A stretch of DNA of 64,000 nt from contig JAGLTS010000008.1 of assembly GCA_023135165.1 (NCBI GenBank), forward strand, positions 1 through 64,000, written 5' to 3'. Within the stretch, counting starts at the first letter, position 1; each line of letters opens with the position of its first letter. Of the stretch, positions 53,170 through 63,684 are shown piece after piece. The notes under the pieces were generated by a model, which saw nothing but the letters and a program-made list of their open reading frames with translations, was not told where the DNA came from and searched no databases. The translations under genes and the position numbers were made by a program. This stretch comes from Phycisphaerales bacterium. GTDB lineage: Bacteria > Planctomycetota > Phycisphaerae > Phycisphaerales > JAGLTS01.

Positions 53170-55950
53170 CTACGGCATGGTTTCACGGTACGTCAACGTG
53201 CAGCCGCGCGGGTCGGCGCCGTGCTCGTCAAAGATCACGAGTTCATTCAACTCACCGACGCGCAGCCACGGCTCGGGCAGGTAGTACGCGTGCTGCGGTC
53301 CAACCGGCGCGCCATTCGGCCCGTGCGCGAAGTACCGCCCCACGTTTCGGCCGTTCACATACAACTGCCCCTTGCTCAGATCTCCGACATCCAGCCACAA
53401 TGGGCGGTTCGTGTGCCTGACTCGGAACTCACAGCGGTACCACGCTGGTCGGCCAGCCGGTTCTCTCGCCGACGCATCGCCGATCGAGCGGTACGCATCT
53501 CGCTCGGGCGGACCCCATTTCGCGAATGACCACGCGGCGCCGGCGCTCAGATCACGCGCGAGACAATCGACCCGAAACGCGCCGGCCAGATCGTCCGCGA
53601 CATGCGTCAGCTCATCGAACGGCGCCAGTTCGATGCGGTTCACACCACGCCGCAGCACGGTCCGATCCGCGACGAAACGGAGCGGGCTGTCAGCACATGA
53701 TGCGATGTGTGCGCCGACCGCGTGACCGTCGACCAGAAGGACGACGGAGTGATCGCAGCCGTCCAGCGAAAGAAGCAGCGGCGCCTTCTTGCGATAATCA
53801 AGCGTCCAGCACAGTCGATGGTGATCGGTCAGTTCGCCCTCTCGGTGGAAAAACAGAGGCGACACGACCTTGGATGGATCGATGCCCGATGCTTCGACCA
53901 TCTCAGGTTCGGATAGCTCGACAGGCGCTGTCTCGTACAGTGGATCGACAAGCCCCTTGGCGTCGCCGAGGCGTTCCATCGCGTCGTATCGGCCGAGGTT
54001 GTCAGCGAGGAAGACCAGTGTGCTCGGCCTGTCCGTTCCATCCAAGCTGAGACGTGCGCCGACCGTGCCGGGACCGAACCCGATGATGCCGACGAACGAT
54101 CCATCGGCGTAGACCGCCAAGCGATCGCCGCTGTGAGGAAGGCACAGGTTTTCGGCCGGTCGTCCGGAGGATTTGAGTTGGATGCGGTAGTACCCGTATC
54201 CCGTCGGCGCGCCGCACGCCTGCAACGAGGCGGGTCCGTCAATCGGCGCATAGCGCGCATACTCGCCCGTGACGAGCTGGTCCTGCGTGACTGCTCGCCA
54301 ATCCTTCAGACCGATCCGTGCTGCGCGCGGAGGCTTCGCCGAGATCGAATGCGTCGCAACCACCCCATCAGTGGACACCGTCTGGTAGGACGAGAACCTC
54401 GGATGAGCGATGGGCGAGCTGTCCGAGTTCAGCCCCGCCACGCCAATATGGATCACATCCTCGTGAACGTACATCGCGTCGACCAGTGCAGGGTTGCAGA
54501 TGACCAGCGTGACATCCTCGTGCTGCTCAACAAGTGCGGTGTTCCCGCTGGGGACGACGAAGGTCGTCTCGCTGTCGTTGATGCTCACGATCCCTTCCGA
54601 ACCCGGCGCTCCGAAAAGGACCAGCGACCTGCCCGCCTGCGTCAGCGCACAGAGATTCGTGTGGTTGAGGGTCGCCCGTCCGCCGAGGCGAACATCACAC
54701 AGGCACCACGCGACGGCTTGATCGGGCATCGTCACGGGGATCGCTACTCCGCTGCTCAGCAGAACCGTCGTGGATGCTCGCATCGCCTTGGGGCCACCTG
54801 ACGCCGGGCTGAAAAGGAAGACGATCGACCCCTGCCCACCCCGAACGTGAAGGACGCTCGGTTCGCCCGATACGGATCGGCCGGCTACCGCGTCGCCACC
54901 CAGCCGAGCCGGGTCCGCCGTTGCGGGATGGTCATCTGGGTCCAGTGCTGCGAAGATCCGTCCAAACGAGTCGGCGAACATCGCGATCCGCCTGATCGCG
55001 TGGTAGTTGGCTGTGCGTGCTCCCGCCTCGCCGAGCGGCGCTCCGCAGTCGTTGCTTGTGGTGACAAACGACGGGTGGGTGCCCCCATCCGCACGCCGAC
55101 CACCGTTGAATCCGAGATTCGTCCCACCGTGGAACGGGGAGAGATTGAACTGCCCGCCGCCTGCGAGTACCTGCGCCGCACGATGCAGCAACTCATTCGG
55201 TTCGATCAGGCCGGATGACGGCTCATCCCACGCATCCGCCTCGCCCGTGGGCAGATCGGCAACCAATCGCGGCGCTTCGGGTCGGACCGCATGGAGTTGC
55301 CTCATCATGCCCAACAGATCGTCCGACCCGACCCAGGCGTCGATCTGGCCTTCGACAGAGTTCCACAGGTTGCTTGCGTTGATGATCGGGACGTCAATGC
55401 CGCATTCCCGCACGACTCGGCCGAGCCTGCCGAGATACCGCTCCACAAGCCCCGCATCATCCAGGAAGTAATGGTCCTCGCCTTGCACGAGGATCAAGGG
55501 TCGGCCTTCACCTCGCGTCGCTTGCATGTCGGCCAATGGTCGAAGCAAGGCGCGCAGGTACCGGCTCATCGGCTCAAGGAACGCCGGATCATCGGTGCGA
55601 AGCCGCAGCCCATCCTCGGCTGCGAGCCACGGTGGGATCCCGCCGAGGTCGTAGCCGCTGCCGACGCAAGGCCCAACGCGCAGAATGCCAAACATTCCCA
55701 GCTCGGCGATCAGCCCCAGGAACGCCGCCACATCCAGATCGTCGGTGAATTCGAACCGCCCAGGCCGGGGTTCATGCAGCCCCCAGACACAGGTCGTCGC
55801 CACGCAATTCAGGCCTGCCTGCCGCGCCGCGAGCAGACGATCACACCACAGGCCGCGTGGTGTGCGAGCGTAGTCGATCGTGCCGCTGACCAGCCAGATT
55901 CGCCGACCGCCCAGCATGAGGCTCTGTCCATCGTATGTCAGCGTTCGCAT
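53170..55950 (-). CDS. GH35 beta-galactosidase-like protein with substituted catalytic residues
   Basis: 926 residues, no signal peptide. The first 330 residues follow the GH35 order: GRRIWLVSGTIDYART, CVWGLHEPRPGRFEF, RVGPCVGSGYDLGG, then VQGEDHYF where GH35 enzymes have VQxENEYG, and NLSPFHGGTNLGFNGG for the HGGTN motif. The general acid/base Glu is replaced by His160 (E158-D159-H160) and the nucleophile Glu appears as Asp232 (LVADLPTG against LVNSEFYTG). The rest is a set of beta domains, including two jelly-roll-like ones near the C-terminus (WYRCEFRVRHTNRPLWLDV, YVNGRNVGRYFAHGPNGAPVGPQHAYYLPE). GH35 fold is secure; galactosidase activity is doubtful. Confidence 0.84.
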   Translation of the reverse strand: MRTLTYDGQSLMLGGRRIWLVSGTIDYARTPRGLWCDRLLAARQAGLNCVATTCVWGLHEPRPGRFEFTDDLDVAAFLGLIAELGMFGILRVGPCVGSGYDLGGIPPWLAAEDGLRLRTDDPAFLEPMSRYLRALLRPLADMQATRGEGRPLILVQGEDHYFLDDAGLVERYLGRLGRVVRECGIDVPIINASNLWNSVEGQIDAWVGSDDLLGMMRQLHAVRPEAPRLVADLPTGEADAWDEPSSGLIEPNELLHRAAQVLAGGGQFNLSPFHGGTNLGFNGGRRADGGTHPSFVTTSNDCGAPLGEAGARTANYHAIRRIAMFADSFGRIFAALDPDDHPATADPARLGGDAVAGRSVSGEPSVLHVRGGQGSIVFLFSPASGGPKAMRASTTVLLSSGVAIPVTMPDQAVAWCLCDVRLGGRATLNHTNLCALTQAGRSLVLFGAPGSEGIVSINDSETTFVVPSGNTALVEQHEDVTLVICNPALVDAMYVHEDVIHIGVAGLNSDSSPIAHPRFSSYQTVSTDGVVATHSISAKPPRAARIGLKDWRAVTQDQLVTGEYARYAPIDGPASLQACGAPTGYGYYRIQLKSSGRPAENLCLPHSGDRLAVYADGSFVGIIGFGPGTVGARLSLDGTDRPSTLVFLADNLGRYDAMERLGDAKGLVDPLYETAPVELSEPEMVEASGIDPSKVVSPLFFHREGELTDHHRLCWTLDYRKKAPLLLSLDGCDHSVVLLVDGHAVGAHIASCADSPLRFVADRTVLRRGVNRIELAPFDELTHVADDLAGAFRVDCLARDLSAGAAWSFAKWGPPERDAYRSIGDASAREPAGRPAWYRCEFRVRHTNRPLWLDVGDLSKGQLYVNGRNVGRYFAHGPNGAPVGPQHAYYLPEPWLRVGELNELVIFDEHGADPRGCTLTYRETMP

Positions 55951-58127: not shown

Positions 58128-59840
58128 ATGACGAACGCACCCCGCACTGACTCGACGACTCAGCACGGCCTCGCCCGACGAAAGGCAGGGCGGGCTGTAC
58201 TTATCGTCATCGTCGTTCTGGTCGTCGTTGTCGCCGTGACCGCCGCCGTCTTCGCCGTCCGTGCAACGAGTCGATCCCTCGATGATGTGCTGACGCGCGA
58301 CCGCTTCCCCGTTGACATCGCCAGCTTCGACATCGTCGTGACATCCAACGGCGAACTTAAAGCCGCGAATCAGATCGAGCTGCGGAACGAAACCGAGCGT
58401 GACGCCGCGATCACCTTCATCATCCCGGAAGGGACCACCGTCGAGCCGGGTACCGTGCTGGTCGAACTCAACACCGAGCAGCTCACCCGGGAGCTCGATA
58501 CTGAAGAAATGCAGCGTGATTCCGCCACGAGCGATCTTGTCGCCGCCGAAGAAGCTCTCGCTATCCAGATCAACGAGAACGAGTCGGCCATACGCCGGTC
58601 GGAACTGTCGCTCACGCTCGCCAAGCTTGAGCTTGAGCAGTGGCGCAAGGGAACGCACGTCGCCAGGCTGAAGGAGCTGAACCTCAGGGTTGAGACGACC
58701 GAACGCGACTACGAACGGCTGGAGCGCAAGTACAAGCAGGCTGAGGATCTCTACAAGCAGGATTTCATCAGCCGTGATGAGAAAGAGCAGGATGAGATCC
58801 GCTATCTCGAAGCGGAGAACGCCCGCGATACGGCCTTGCTCAACCTGGAGATCTACGAGGAGTACGAACACCCCAAGGAGGAAAAGAGCAAGACATCCGC
58901 CGTTACGGAGGCGCAGGCTGAACTCGATCGCGTCCTGGCGCGGAACAGGTCCGAACTCGCCCAGAGAGAGGCCAACCTCAAGACTCGCCAGCGACAACTC
59001 AAGACCCGCGAGGAGCGCGTCGCCAAGCTTGAGACGCAGCTTGAGGCATGCACGATCAAAGCGCCCGATTCCGGGCTTGTCGTCTACGGCACGAGCGTCG
59101 ACCAGAACCGTTGGCGGGGCGGCGGCGAAGGGCCGTTCCAGGTTGGTTCACGCATCTACCCGCAGCAGACATTGATCGTTCTCCCGGACACGCGCTCGAT
59201 GATCGCCGAAGTGAAGGTCCACGAGAGCATTACCTCGCGCATTCATCCGGGCCAGCACGCGACGATCGTCGTCGAAGCGGTCGGCGGCGGCATGTTTGAC
59301 GCAACCGTTGAATCGATCGGCGTCCTTGCGGAGGGCGGCGGATGGCGCGATCCCAACTTGCGCGAGTACACCGTCAAGCTCAAGCTCAATGAGGTGAACG
59401 GCAGCAACCTGAAGCCGTCCATGCGATGCGAGGCGAGGATCTTGCTCGATACGGTGCAGGACGCTCGCGCCGTCCCGATCCAGGCGGTCTTCAACGACGC
59501 CGGAGCACCCTACTGCTACGTCGCCGATGGGTCGCACTACGTGCGCCGCAATGTTCGGACGGGCCGATTCAGCGAGACGTGGATTGAGATCATGGATGGG
59601 CTGGATCAGGGTGACATCGTTCTGCTGCGCGAGCCTGACCCCGGCAACATCAAGAGGACTCGGGCCGACGATGAGGCCGAGGCGCCCGCAGTCGAGCCGG
59701 CCGGGCGCAAGGGCCAACGTCGCAATCCGTCCCCGCAGGAGTCAGGTGTGGAGGCCGAGGGTCAGCACGAAGCCGACACCGCCAATGCCAGCACCGTCGA
59801 TGCTGTCATCACCGACACGCCGAGCGATCCTTCAGGCTGA
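58128..59840 (+). CDS. Periplasmic adaptor (HlyD/MacA-type) with long coiled-coil hairpin
   Basis: 570 residues. One N-terminal membrane segment (about 24-44, AVLIVIVVLVVVVAVTAAVFAV), a barrel-sandwich part (IELRNETERDAAITFIIPEGTTVEPGTVL), a coiled-coil hairpin of about 230 residues (LTRELDTEEMQRDSATSDL to TREERVAKLETQLE), the second half (CTIKAPDSGLVVYGT), and beta-barrel domains. The Pro/Glu/Gly-rich C-terminal tail of about 60 residues is unusual. GGAG 7 bases before ATG 58128 fixes the start. It follows the TolC gene and its last bases overlap by 9 with the end of the methyltransferase gene on the other strand. No ABC or RND partner is adjacent. Confidence 0.87.
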   Translation: MTNAPRTDSTTQHGLARRKAGRAVLIVIVVLVVVVAVTAAVFAVRATSRSLDDVLTRDRFPVDIASFDIVVTSNGELKAANQIELRNETERDAAITFIIPEGTTVEPGTVLVELNTEQLTRELDTEEMQRDSATSDLVAAEEALAIQINENESAIRRSELSLTLAKLELEQWRKGTHVARLKELNLRVETTERDYERLERKYKQAEDLYKQDFISRDEKEQDEIRYLEAENARDTALLNLEIYEEYEHPKEEKSKTSAVTEAQAELDRVLARNRSELAQREANLKTRQRQLKTREERVAKLETQLEACTIKAPDSGLVVYGTSVDQNRWRGGGEGPFQVGSRIYPQQTLIVLPDTRSMIAEVKVHESITSRIHPGQHATIVVEAVGGGMFDATVESIGVLAEGGGWRDPNLREYTVKLKLNEVNGSNLKPSMRCEARILLDTVQDARAVPIQAVFNDAGAPYCYVADGSHYVRRNVRTGRFSETWIEIMDGLDQGDIVLLREPDPGNIKRTRADDEAEAPAVEPAGRKGQRRNPSPQESGVEAEGQHEADTANASTVDAVITDTPSDPSG

Positions 59841-60923
59841 CCCGTCTTCGGGGAACAGCGCGTCCTCCGCCGCTCCACCGACATCCGCGAACGACGCTTT
59901 TGTCTTCGCAGACGCCTTGCGCGGCTGAAAGATGGCTGACGATGTGCCCTTCGCAAGCCCGACGCGAATCGGCCCCTCTTTGATCCGCTCGAACGCGGAC
60001 TTGGCATTGCCCGCTGAGTACTCCACGCCGATCGACCTCCTGCCAATCGCTCGCGCCACCGTACACGTCGTGCCACTTCCGAGGAACGGATCGAGCACCA
60101 GATCACCTTCATTGGAGCATGCACGGATCACACGCTCTAAGTAGACCTCGGGGATCTGGTTGTGATGCAGCGCGCGACGCTCCTTGTTATTCCCCTGGAT
60201 TCGTCCCCAGTACTGCCCGTACCACACATCCATCGGCACGCGCAGCCCGACGTGCTCATCCTTGGCCAGCGTGCGCGGATCGAAGTACACCGTCGCGCGA
60301 TCGCTCGGCTCCATCACCGCTTCCGCGTTCCAGATTCGCTCAAGCGGCTCCATGACGAAGTACAAGGCGTGCACCTTGCTCATGATGAAGCTGCTCTTGC
60401 GGTTCTGCCCGAATCGGAAGTGCCAGATGCACCAGTTCATCATCGTGAGCCCGCGGCGCTTCAGGTGCAGCACGACCTCCGCTGCCGTGTCATCGGGGAT
60501 GTTCACCCACAACGACCCGCACGGTGAGAGCACGTTGACGCACGCATCCAGCCAGTCGTAGGTGAACCGCTCGTACTCGGTGCGCGGCATGCCGTCCTTC
60601 CACTCGTCGTACGGCACATCCCAGTTGAACGGCGGATCGGCGAAGATCAGATCGACCTTCTTTGAATCGGGCAGGCTCGGCAGGACATCCCGGCAATCGC
60701 CGACGTACACGCGCGTGTCCGGTTCTTTGAGCTGATGACGGGGCTTGATCGACGTTTTCTTCTTCGGCGTGTGCGGCGGGAGCTGGTCACCGTGCAGCCG
60801 AACGGCTGTATCGTCGTCAGCCTGGACGAGCGTCAGGGCGAGGTCCCGCCCCACCGTGATCGCACCTTTCGGCATCGCGTAGCCCCCCGGTCGATCGAAC
60901 TCCATGTTCTTCCGTTCCGCCAT
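59832..60923 (-). CDS. Beta-class DNA methyltransferase (N6-adenine or N4-cytosine), orphan
   Basis: 363 residues. The motif order is beta-class: DPPF (96-99, motif IV, the NPPY/DPPY equivalent) precedes DPFLGSGTT (278-286, motif I, the SAM-binding FxGxG). The first ~70 residues are a basic extension. It lacks a restriction enzyme or specificity gene beside it. GGAG 8 bases before ATG 60923 supports the start; this overlaps by 107 bases the end of the upstream membrane-protein gene in another frame. DPPF is most common in adenine methyltransferases, but the target cannot be read from the sequence. It ends convergently with the adaptor gene. Confidence 0.88.
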   Translation of the reverse strand: MAERKNMEFDRPGGYAMPKGAITVGRDLALTLVQADDDTAVRLHGDQLPPHTPKKKTSIKPRHQLKEPDTRVYVGDCRDVLPSLPDSKKVDLIFADPPFNWDVPYDEWKDGMPRTEYERFTYDWLDACVNVLSPCGSLWVNIPDDTAAEVVLHLKRRGLTMMNWCIWHFRFGQNRKSSFIMSKVHALYFVMEPLERIWNAEAVMEPSDRATVYFDPRTLAKDEHVGLRVPMDVWYGQYWGRIQGNNKERRALHHNQIPEVYLERVIRACSNEGDLVLDPFLGSGTTCTVARAIGRRSIGVEYSAGNAKSAFERIKEGPIRVGLAKGTSSAIFQPRKASAKTKASFADVGGAAEDALFPEDGSA

Positions 60924-61695
60924 CGGCTGTTCTCCTCTCGGCGACATCATACGCATCGACCGGCGGATCGTCGCCCGGCGCCTCCTCCTCGTCGCCCGGC
61001 CGGGTCTGCAGAATCCCATCCATCCCTCGCGATTGAAGGTACCGCACCTGTATCGCGTGCCACGCCTCCCACGCATCGACCTGCTTGCGCCGGTGCCGCA
61101 CCTCGTCCATGAGTTGATACCGCGTCATCTTGGCTGGATCTTTGCGCTCCGTGCTACGGTGCACGCCGAACCGTGAGAGCAGCTTGTCCGTCGCCTTGAG
61201 CCCCAGGATCAACGCAAGCACATACCGCGCAACCTTCATCCCCACGCCGCGCAGCCGAAAGACCCGGCTCGTGCGTGCAAGACGCGCCACACGAAGCGGT
61301 CGCAGGAGTGGCAGCACGATAATCACGATGTCGATCCAGTTGCGCCGGGCATACTCGAAGCGAGACTCGGCGATCATCTCCTTGATGACGAACTCGACGA
61401 GAAACGCCAGCCAGATAGCGGCCTCGGAAATCCGCACCGCCCACCACGTCACGACCGGCGTCGTGTCGGCGTGCTCGTGCAAGTACGTGAAGTCAACGAC
61501 CAGCAACGGCAGAATCAAGATCGCTAGAACGATCATCGGCCAGTGGAAGTACCGGTCCACGCGGGCGCGAAGCCGATCATTCGCGATGACAATGCCCAAC
61601 CCCGGCACGGTCACATAGCGCACGCCGGGTGGCGGCGGCGGAAGCACCGTTCCGCGCGGCACGATCACGGATTGCATCGACTGACGCTCCATCAT
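60817..61695 (-). CDS. Voltage-sensor-domain-only membrane protein
   Basis: 292 residues. Four membrane segments: S1 about 51-72, S2 about 85-107 (EAAIWLAFLVEFVIKEM), S3 about 118-130 (NWIDIVIIVLPLL) and S4 about 131-150, where arginines stand at 132, 135, 138, 141, 144 and 147, plus 149. This is the textbook S4 pattern, with acidic partners D122 (S3), E91/E101 (S2) and D68 (S1). No pore helix or selectivity filter follows; a cytoplasmic helix (about 190-225, MDEVRHRRKQVDAWEAW) and an acidic tail end the protein. Such a sensor could be a proton channel or a voltage-responsive signalling module. ATG 61677 with GGAG is an alternative start. It lies 30 bases downstream of the acetoacetyl-CoA synthetase gene; the last 107 bases overlap the methyltransferase. 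Confidence 0.8.
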   Translation of the reverse strand: MMERQSMQSVIVPRGTVLPPPPPGVRYVTVPGLGIVIANDRLRARVDRYFHWPMIVLAILILPLLVVDFTYLHEHADTTPVVTWWAVRISEAAIWLAFLVEFVIKEMIAESRFEYARRNWIDIVIIVLPLLRPLRVARLARTSRVFRLRGVGMKVARYVLALILGLKATDKLLSRFGVHRSTERKDPAKMTRYQLMDEVRHRRKQVDAWEAWHAIQVRYLQSRGMDGILQTRPGDEEEAPGDDPPVDAYDVAERRTADGGTEEHGVRSTGGLRDAERCDHGGAGPRPDARPG

Positions 61696-61725: not shown

Positions 61726-63684
61726 CTACTCCCGCAAATCGGGCAGATCCTTGTAAAGGTCCAGCGACTCGGGGTTCTTGAGCGCATCGCGGTTCTTCAC
61801 GGGTCGTCCGTGGATCACGTTGCGGACAGCGAGTTCCACCTTCTTCATGCTGATCGTGTACGGGATGTCATCCACCGCGATGATCTTCGCCGGGACGTGG
61901 CGAGGACTGCAATTGCGGCGGATGTTTGTGCGGATCATCTTCACAAGATCGTCAGTGAGCGATTGACCTGCTCGCAGCTTGACGAAGAGGATGACGCGCA
62001 CATCATCATCCCACTCCTGCCCGATGACGAGGCTGTCTTCGATTTCGTCGAGCGGTTCGACTTGGCGGTAGATCTCAGCCGTGCCGATGCGGACGCCGCC
62101 GGGATTGAGCGTCGTGTCGGATCGGCCGAAGATGCGCACGCCGCCGCGGTCGTTGATCGAGATGAAGTCCCCGTGATGCCACACGCCGGGGTATCGGTCG
62201 AAGTACGCCGACCTGTACGCGGCGCCGTCCGGGTCCGCCCAGAAGTAAATCGGCATCGGTGGGAATGCCGCGGCGCAGATGAGTTCACCCGTCTCGTTCA
62301 GAACAGGCGTGCCTGCTTCGCCGTATGCGTGAACATCCATGCCCAGGCATCGGCATTGAATCTCGCCCCGATAGACCGGCCCCATCGGATTGCCCGCAAC
62401 GAAACACCCGTTCAGGTCCGACCCGCCCGAGATCGAACTGAGGCACAGGTCGGCCTTGATGTCGCGGTACACATAGTCGAAGCTCTCATCCGCAAGCGGT
62501 GATCCCGTTGAAAGAATCGCCTTGAGCGTGGCAAGGTCGAACCGCTCCCTCGGCTTCACACCCGCCTTCTCCAGCGCCGCGATGTAGCGAGCGCTCGTGC
62601 CGAAGATCGTGATCTTCTCCTCTTCCGCCAGGCGCATCAGCGCATCAGGATCGGGATGGAAGGGCGACCCGTCGAAGAGCGTCACCGTCGCGCCCAGGCC
62701 GAGCGAACAGACGAGCCAGTTCCACATCATCCAGCCGCACGTCGTGAAGTAGAAGATGTTGTCTTCACGCTTCACATCGCTGTGCAGGCGGAGTTCTTTG
62801 AGTTGGTTGATGAGTACGCCGCCGACCGACTGAACGATGCACTTGGGAAGTCCGGTCGTCCCCGATGAATACATGATGTATAGCGGATGATCGAACGGCA
62901 CCTGCTCGAACTCGATGTCAAGACCGTCCTCATCCGCGATAAAATCCTGATAGTGCACAGCCGCGGGCAGCGATGATGTGTCGGCTCGCTCCTGCATGTA
63001 GGGCACGACGATGATCTTCGGCTTGAATTGAAGCTGCTCGTAGATCCCCGCGACCTTCTCCAGTGATGAGAACTGCTTCCCGCCGTAGGTGTAGCCGTCC
63101 GCGGTGAAGAGGATCTTGGGCTCGATGCGCTGAAAGCGGTCGAGCACGCCCTTGACGCCGAAATCCGGCGAGCAGGACGACCAGATCGCCCCGATGCTTG
63201 TCGCCGCGAGCATGGCGATGACCGTTTCGGGCATGTTCGGCATGAAGCCGACGATCCGGTCGCCCTTGACCACACCCTCCGCGCGTAGCGATGCAGCCAG
63301 TTTTGCGACTTGATTGAAAAGCTCCGCATACGTGAGCGTGCGCGATTGCGTCATCGCCTCACCGCGAAACACAATCGCGGTGCGATCATCGCGGTAGCGC
63401 AGCAGGTTCTCCGCGAAGTTCAGTTCCGCGCCTTGGAACCACATCGCGCCCGGCATCTTCGCCGGATCGTTAATCACCTGATGGTGTGCTTTCGACGCGA
63501 TGATCCCGACATCGTCCCACACCGCCTGCCAGAAGTCTGCGAGATGGTCAATCGACCACTCGTGCAGTTGTTCATACGTTGTGAAGTGCGCAGCGAACCG
63601 GTCGTTGACGCGCTGCATGAACGTAAACATGTTCGTCCGCTTCGCGCGATCGTCAGTCGGGGTCCACATCGGCTGAGGCGTCAT
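61726..63684 (-). CDS. Acetoacetyl-CoA synthetase
   Basis: 652 residues, the typical length for AACS. It activates acetoacetate to acetoacetyl-CoA with ATP and CoA. The adenylate-forming signatures are YIMYSSGTTGLPKCIVQ (the P-loop-like motif), GSPLADESFDY, and GRSDTTLNPGGVRIGTAEIYRQVE for the hinge; the C-terminal lysine lies in the KKVE segment (SMKKVELAVRN). AcsA-like acetyl-CoA synthetases share the fold, but the opening (TPTDDRAKRTNMFTFMQRVN) and the WFQGAELNFAENLL segment are AACS-like. The start is ATG 63684. It is the first gene of a minus-strand series with the voltage-sensor protein and the methyltransferase. Confidence 0.93.
   Translation of the reverse strand: MTPQPMWTPTDDRAKRTNMFTFMQRVNDRFAAHFTTYEQLHEWSIDHLADFWQAVWDDVGIIASKAHHQVINDPAKMPGAMWFQGAELNFAENLLRYRDDRTAIVFRGEAMTQSRTLTYAELFNQVAKLAASLRAEGVVKGDRIVGFMPNMPETVIAMLAATSIGAIWSSCSPDFGVKGVLDRFQRIEPKILFTADGYTYGGKQFSSLEKVAGIYEQLQFKPKIIVVPYMQERADTSSLPAAVHYQDFIADEDGLDIEFEQVPFDHPLYIMYSSGTTGLPKCIVQSVGGVLINQLKELRLHSDVKREDNIFYFTTCGWMMWNWLVCSLGLGATVTLFDGSPFHPDPDALMRLAEEEKITIFGTSARYIAALEKAGVKPRERFDLATLKAILSTGSPLADESFDYVYRDIKADLCLSSISGGSDLNGCFVAGNPMGPVYRGEIQCRCLGMDVHAYGEAGTPVLNETGELICAAAFPPMPIYFWADPDGAAYRSAYFDRYPGVWHHGDFISINDRGGVRIFGRSDTTLNPGGVRIGTAEIYRQVEPLDEIEDSLVIGQEWDDDVRVILFVKLRAGQSLTDDLVKMIRTNIRRNCSPRHVPAKIIAVDDIPYTISMKKVELAVRNVIHGRPVKNRDALKNPESLDLYKDLPDLRE

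Follow-up and report, generated by a model that had tools for sequence, protein, structure and literature searches.

The locus and its genes

The voltage-sensor gene lies on the minus strand of the window (the whole stretch of DNA analysed, 64,000 nucleotides), where one open reading frame with an ATG start, present as a single copy in the source genome, encodes a protein of 292 amino acids. It is flanked on the same strand by genes for an acetoacetyl-CoA synthetase and a DNA methyltransferase. The longest open reading frame of the methyltransferase spans 59832-61076, its start lying probably at or after 60923, and the end of the voltage-sensor gene overlaps the start of this gene in another frame (60817-60923). 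The features of the locus are:

61726-63684 (-), upstream neighbour, acetoacetyl-CoA synthetase, separated by a gap of 30 nt (NCBIfam TIGR01217, 924.7 bits)
60817-61695 (-), pore-less voltage-sensor-domain protein, 292 aa, stop codon included (open reading frame and homologues)
61576-61647 (-), residues 17-40, LPPPxPGVR(H/Y)V...DDxLR motif, predicted beta-hairpin (conservation, AlphaFold, hhalign)
61480-61545 (-), S1, residues about 51-72 (AlphaFold), with P63 at 61507-61509 and the acidic D/E68 at 61492-61494
61372-61443 (-), S2, residues about 85-108, with F98 and E101 of the charge-transfer centre (invariant, 57/57)
61303-61341 (-), S3, residues about 119-131, (N/H)WxD motif with D122, and P129 at the end (D122 and P129 in 57/57)
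61249-61302 (-), S3-S4 turn and S4, residues 132-149, with R132, R135, R138, R141, R144, R147 and R149 (ladder and register; AlphaFold block means of 60-74, which is low)
61171-61248 (-), amphipathic post-S4 helix, residues 150-175, S4-S5-linker-like and not of transmembrane grade (AlphaFold helix 145-175, hydropathy)
61027-61125 (-), conserved C-terminal helix, residues 191-223, MTRxxLMxEVxxLR...WExWH (clade A conservation; AlphaFold helix 192-223 with high block pLDDT)
60817-60993 (-), tail, variable and disordered, which overlaps the beginning of the methyltransferase gene downstream (low pLDDT, overlap of the open reading frames)
59832-60923 (-), downstream neighbour, N6/N4 DNA methyltransferase (PF01555, E 4.5e-39; start inferred)

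The window protein contains a voltage-sensor domain

In agreement with the original prediction of a voltage-sensor domain (VSD), a script check found all of the residues it had named, namely arginines 132, 135, 138, 141, 144 and 147, D122 in S3, E91 and E101 in S2, and D68 at the end of S1. R147 is followed by a further S4 arginine, R149, while R132 sits in the very short S3-S4 turn, ahead of P133. Shuffling the window protein gave a run of six arginines at i+3 spacing in 9 of 20,000 cases; such a run is improbable by chance in one protein, but not unique genome-wide. The arginine pattern alone is thus suggestive, and it is homology that makes the identity of the domain secure.

The Pfam Ion_trans model matches residues 49-148 and stops at S4, with 18.3 bits, which is below the cut-off of 25. 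A profile of the VSD matched Streptomyces six-transmembrane K+ channels with the filter TVGYGD at 59-61 bits, and hhalign against one of these channels gave a probability of 98.3% (E 1.3e-14). Judged by this homology, the window protein is a VSD (S1-S4) of the VGIC superfamily. The Streptomyces channels (e.g. L039-L042) have a very short S3-S4 connection as well, and the spacing from the Asp to the first Arg in (N/H)WxD...P...LR is 13 residues in both; however, the channels continue with S5, pore and S6, where the window protein has a helix and a tail. Neither the single protein nor profiles retrieved a significant match from the PDB by sequence, the weak ones including Nav and Kv channels, and NCBIfam holds no model for the family.

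AlphaFold models of clade A and clade B proteins (defined below) showed good confidence for S1-S2, while S4 was the least confident transmembrane part; in the model of the window protein, S3 and the first three arginines are drawn as a single helix (120-139). The placement of S4 therefore rests on homology rather than on the model. When the window-protein model was submitted to Foldseek, nearly all of the 50 matches listed were VSD proteins (Kv, Nav, Cav, KCNQ, SLC9C1), each of them weak with an E of about 0.5 and above. The top matches of a clade B model were mostly VSD channels too, and with neither model did a Foldseek match reach E 0.001.

A family of voltage-sensor domains without a pore

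A search of the genome contigs with the single protein returned nothing, while an alignment-based search found relatives. The resulting family alignment comprises 57 distinct proteins, including that of the window, from Planctomycetota and Bacteroidota. The relatives were drawn from the same order, from a named genome collection, from 392 planctomycete genomes, which gave 29 strong matches, and from the order of genome G314, where 42 of 170 genomes have one; the viral contigs searched contained none. Weak matches in other planctomycetes (L072, L123-L127) were considered as family members, but those inspected are ordinary pored channels, several of them with a long tail that resembles TrkA-N by eye. 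A 3370-aa open frame in G548, a candidate fusion, was rejected as a masked stretch (a run of N).

In a tree calculated from the columns outside S4, 11 proteins of Phycisphaerales-type planctomycetes, among them that of the window, form clade A with a support of 100/100. The proteins that we call clade B are grouped by shared architecture and come from Pirellulaceae and related planctomycetes, two Phycisphaeraceae, and a single Bacteroidota branch, mostly Cyclobacteriaceae; in this tree without a fixed root, clade B may not be one clade.

S5-S6, a filter motif or a segment of transmembrane grade after S4 was found in none of the 57 proteins, supporting the predicted absence of a pore, and there is accordingly no orthologue (0/57) in which S5-S6 follow in the same gene. 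The best 19-residue Kyte-Doolittle mean after S4 is 1.31 in the window protein and ranges from 0.64 to 1.55 over the family. Nor was a pore gene present in the flanks, for which 660 open reading frames around 50 loci were inspected. The sole filter-like string among these lies in an adjoining NAD synthase gene and was dismissed as a chance match.

The charge-transfer centre and the S4 ladder are conserved

Residues F98, E101, D122, P63 and P129 are invariant (57/57), and position 68 is Asp or Glu in 55 of the 57 proteins. Over the whole family, Arg or Lys occupies 299 of 408 in-register S4 positions (73%), but only 26 of 708 positions off register (3.7%), so that the ladder is conserved across the family. 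In L047, six in-register Arg stand in succession. The fold family and the conserved gating parts, like the missing pore, are hence established at the level of sequence.

Within clade A, the basic positions are R132 (10/11), R135 (11/11), R141 (10/11), R144 (10/11, otherwise Lys) and R149 (11/11), whereas R138 and R147 vary and are often replaced by Ala, Ser or Thr. The six gating arginines of the original prediction are thus present in the window protein, but its close relatives do not conserve R138 and R147, so that the set of six is a peculiarity of this protein and not a family trait; most orthologues would have a modest gating charge.

The length of S4, measured between the first conserved Arg and the Arg of LRG (residues 135-149 in the window protein), varies between 11 and 30, and equals 2 modulo 3 in 51 of the 57 proteins. 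The tree requires 13 or more changes of S4 length, of which as few as 4 need alter the phase. At least 9 of 13 length changes in phase has a probability of about 0.009 if indel sizes took no account of phase, with one third of them multiples of three, a rough value for which the minimum number of changes was counted. It looks as if S4 had mostly gained and lost whole i+3 steps, suggesting selection on the ladder itself.

An amphipathic helix follows S4

S4 is followed by an amphipathic helix, which is conserved in clade A. Behind it, clade B shows clear heptads: in the sample shown, the hydrophobic fraction is 0.75-0.88 at a/d positions and 0-0.15 at the others. Proteins of clade A share a conserved MTRxxLMxEVxxLR...WExWH helix, in which M190, T191, R192, R203, W209 and W212 are present in 11 of 11 proteins and the heptads are weaker (z 1.0, p 0.17 for the window protein). 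The charged helix that had been likened to the one in Hv1 is real; clade B has it as a heptad coiled coil, the clade of the window protein as a weaker amphipathic helix.

Two architectures

Clade A proteins consist of a short N-terminal LPPPxPGVRHV segment, one VSD and the C-terminal helix. Clade B proteins contain an extra N-terminal transmembrane unit. As this unit aligns with S1-S2 of the following VSD (hhalign 88%, E 2.9e-6), clade B probably arose by tandem duplication, with a first copy that is without a charged S4. A degenerate VSD-like copy of this kind (S1-S3, no charged S4) precedes the working VSD in most relatives (L019, L020, L026, L036, L038, L047-L071, L017-L037). The linker between the two copies carries a PPLRxGxRD...WLPxLGW motif, modelled by AlphaFold as a beta-hairpin. 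This linker is matched by the N-terminus of clade A (hhalign 45%, E 2e-4), which is a hairpin in the AlphaFold model as well; P20 is found in 11/11 proteins of clade A and 42/46 of clade B, and R26 in 11/11 and 39/46, respectively. Based on this match, clade A may represent a trimmed form of the tandem protein. Our searches of the open-access literature for bacterial pore-less VSDs brought up no description of the tandem architecture.

Proposed function

The original prediction had left the choice between a bacterial proton channel and a voltage-driven switch. Of the two, the switch fits better, and we lean towards a stand-alone voltage sensor working as a switch driven by the membrane potential, rather than as a channel of the pore type. 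The canonical charge-transfer centre of F98, E101 and D122 would be formed by S1-S3, and the arginine ladder of S4 would move through it with the membrane potential. This motion would be passed on by the amphipathic, S4-S5-linker-like helix to the conserved cytosolic helix (the coiled coil in the sister clade), which in turn may oligomerise and/or bind a partner. Voltage sensing, the oligomeric state and an output through a partner protein are what we infer for the family.

An animal protein of comparable layout is TMEM266, a pore-less VSD with a cytosolic tail. Ci-VSP and TPTE likewise use a VSD without a pore of its own, but in 26 family members searched with Pfam, the C-terminal region contained neither a phosphatase nor any other enzyme domain. 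SLC9C1, which was among the Foldseek matches, couples its VSD to a non-pore output; the family proteins, however, have no transporter domain.

An Hv1-like voltage-gated channel for protons or other ions, in which the VSD itself would be the permeation path and the C-terminal helix would dimerise, appears possible but unlikely. It shares the overall plan with Hv1/VSOP, a stand-alone VSD followed by a C-terminal helix or coiled coil, and F98, E101 and D122 align with F150, E153 and D174 of the Hv1 charge-transfer centre. Proton conduction by a Shaker VSD without its pore (Zhao & Blunck 2016, as cited in PMC13095418) makes such a function possible in principle. However, the column of Asp112, the acidic selectivity residue in the middle of Hv1 S1, is occupied by Pro (P63 in the window protein) in 57/57 family proteins; non-acidic residues at this position render hHv1 permeable to anions (PMC10377628). 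Furthermore, the Trp of the Hv1 S4 motif RxWRxxR is absent from S4 of all 57 proteins, and the S3 Asp and the first S4 Arg are 13 residues apart in the window protein compared to 31 in Hv1, a connection shorter by 18 residues. The family is bacterial and has no detectable specific homology to Hv1, with an hhalign probability of just 9%; its homology is to K+ channels.

Alternatively, the protein could be a structural or scaffolding membrane protein that has kept the VSD fold while S4 is no longer moved by voltage. The number of S4 charges does differ among orthologues and the AlphaFold models resolve S4 poorly, but the i+3 register of Arg/Lys together with the invariant countercharges corresponds to the needs of voltage sensing and not to those of a scaffold, which makes this explanation improbable.

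Similarly improbable is a split channel, in which the voltage-sensing subunit would join in trans with a pore from another gene. The VSD descends from those of six-transmembrane K+ channels, and the VSD and pore of Eag1, when split, still make a voltage-gated channel (PMC13095418). The genome also encodes one two-transmembrane K+ channel (L128; G000 contig 80, about 54049-54207), its only PF07885 match, with a TIGYGD filter behind long pentapeptide-like repeats (ATFTQDA...). This gene, however, lies on another contig, and the flanks of the 50 loci are without a pore gene.

That the gene is a decayed channel gene which has lost its pore and is on its way out would be in line with the homology to pored channels, but is extremely improbable given the intact open reading frames in two phyla, the 57 distinct pore-less proteins and the lineage-specific conserved C-terminal helix, and it is largely refuted by the dN/dS of close pairs (0.06-0.2, NG86), which indicates functional genes and not fragments and, at the sequence level, demonstrates purifying selection on the family.

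Pore-less voltage-sensor domains in bacteria

Stand-alone VSDs are known in eukaryotes, and VSDs have evidently become free-standing in bacteria as well. According to a 2023 review, all prokaryotic VSDs come with a pore domain, as verified by database searches, and Hv1-type channels are not known in bacteria or archaea (PMC10377628). The first of these statements is at odds with the conserved pore-less family of Planctomycetota and Bacteroidota, and searches of the open-access literature brought up no account of a VSD without a pore in bacteria. The family may well be the first one of stand-alone voltage sensors in prokaryotes, made up of receptors for the membrane potential which would pass a signal to a partner in the cytosol; in its second lineage, a degenerate VSD-like copy is fused in front of the working one. 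As small bacterial proteins they would lend themselves to studying sensor movement without a pore, and if they do sense voltage, they would point to a direct route of membrane-potential signalling in bacteria.

Gene neighbourhoods of the relatives

The neighbours in the window itself give no clue to function, as originally stated, but several clade A relatives lie in a nadE-mutL operon. In the clade A loci L008, L009, L011, L012, L013, L014 and L089, the VSD gene either directly precedes nadE, the gene for glutamine-dependent NAD+ synthase, or overlaps it, and mutL usually comes next; an HTH/response-regulator gene is found upstream in L009, L011 and L013. Neighbourhoods differ between lineages, and none points to a partner. 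In five Bacteroidota loci (L018, L022, L023, L033 and L037) a BCCT (betaine/choline) transporter gene is found near the VSD gene, in divergent orientation in L033, the one inspected; its proximity may hint at osmotic or ionic stress.
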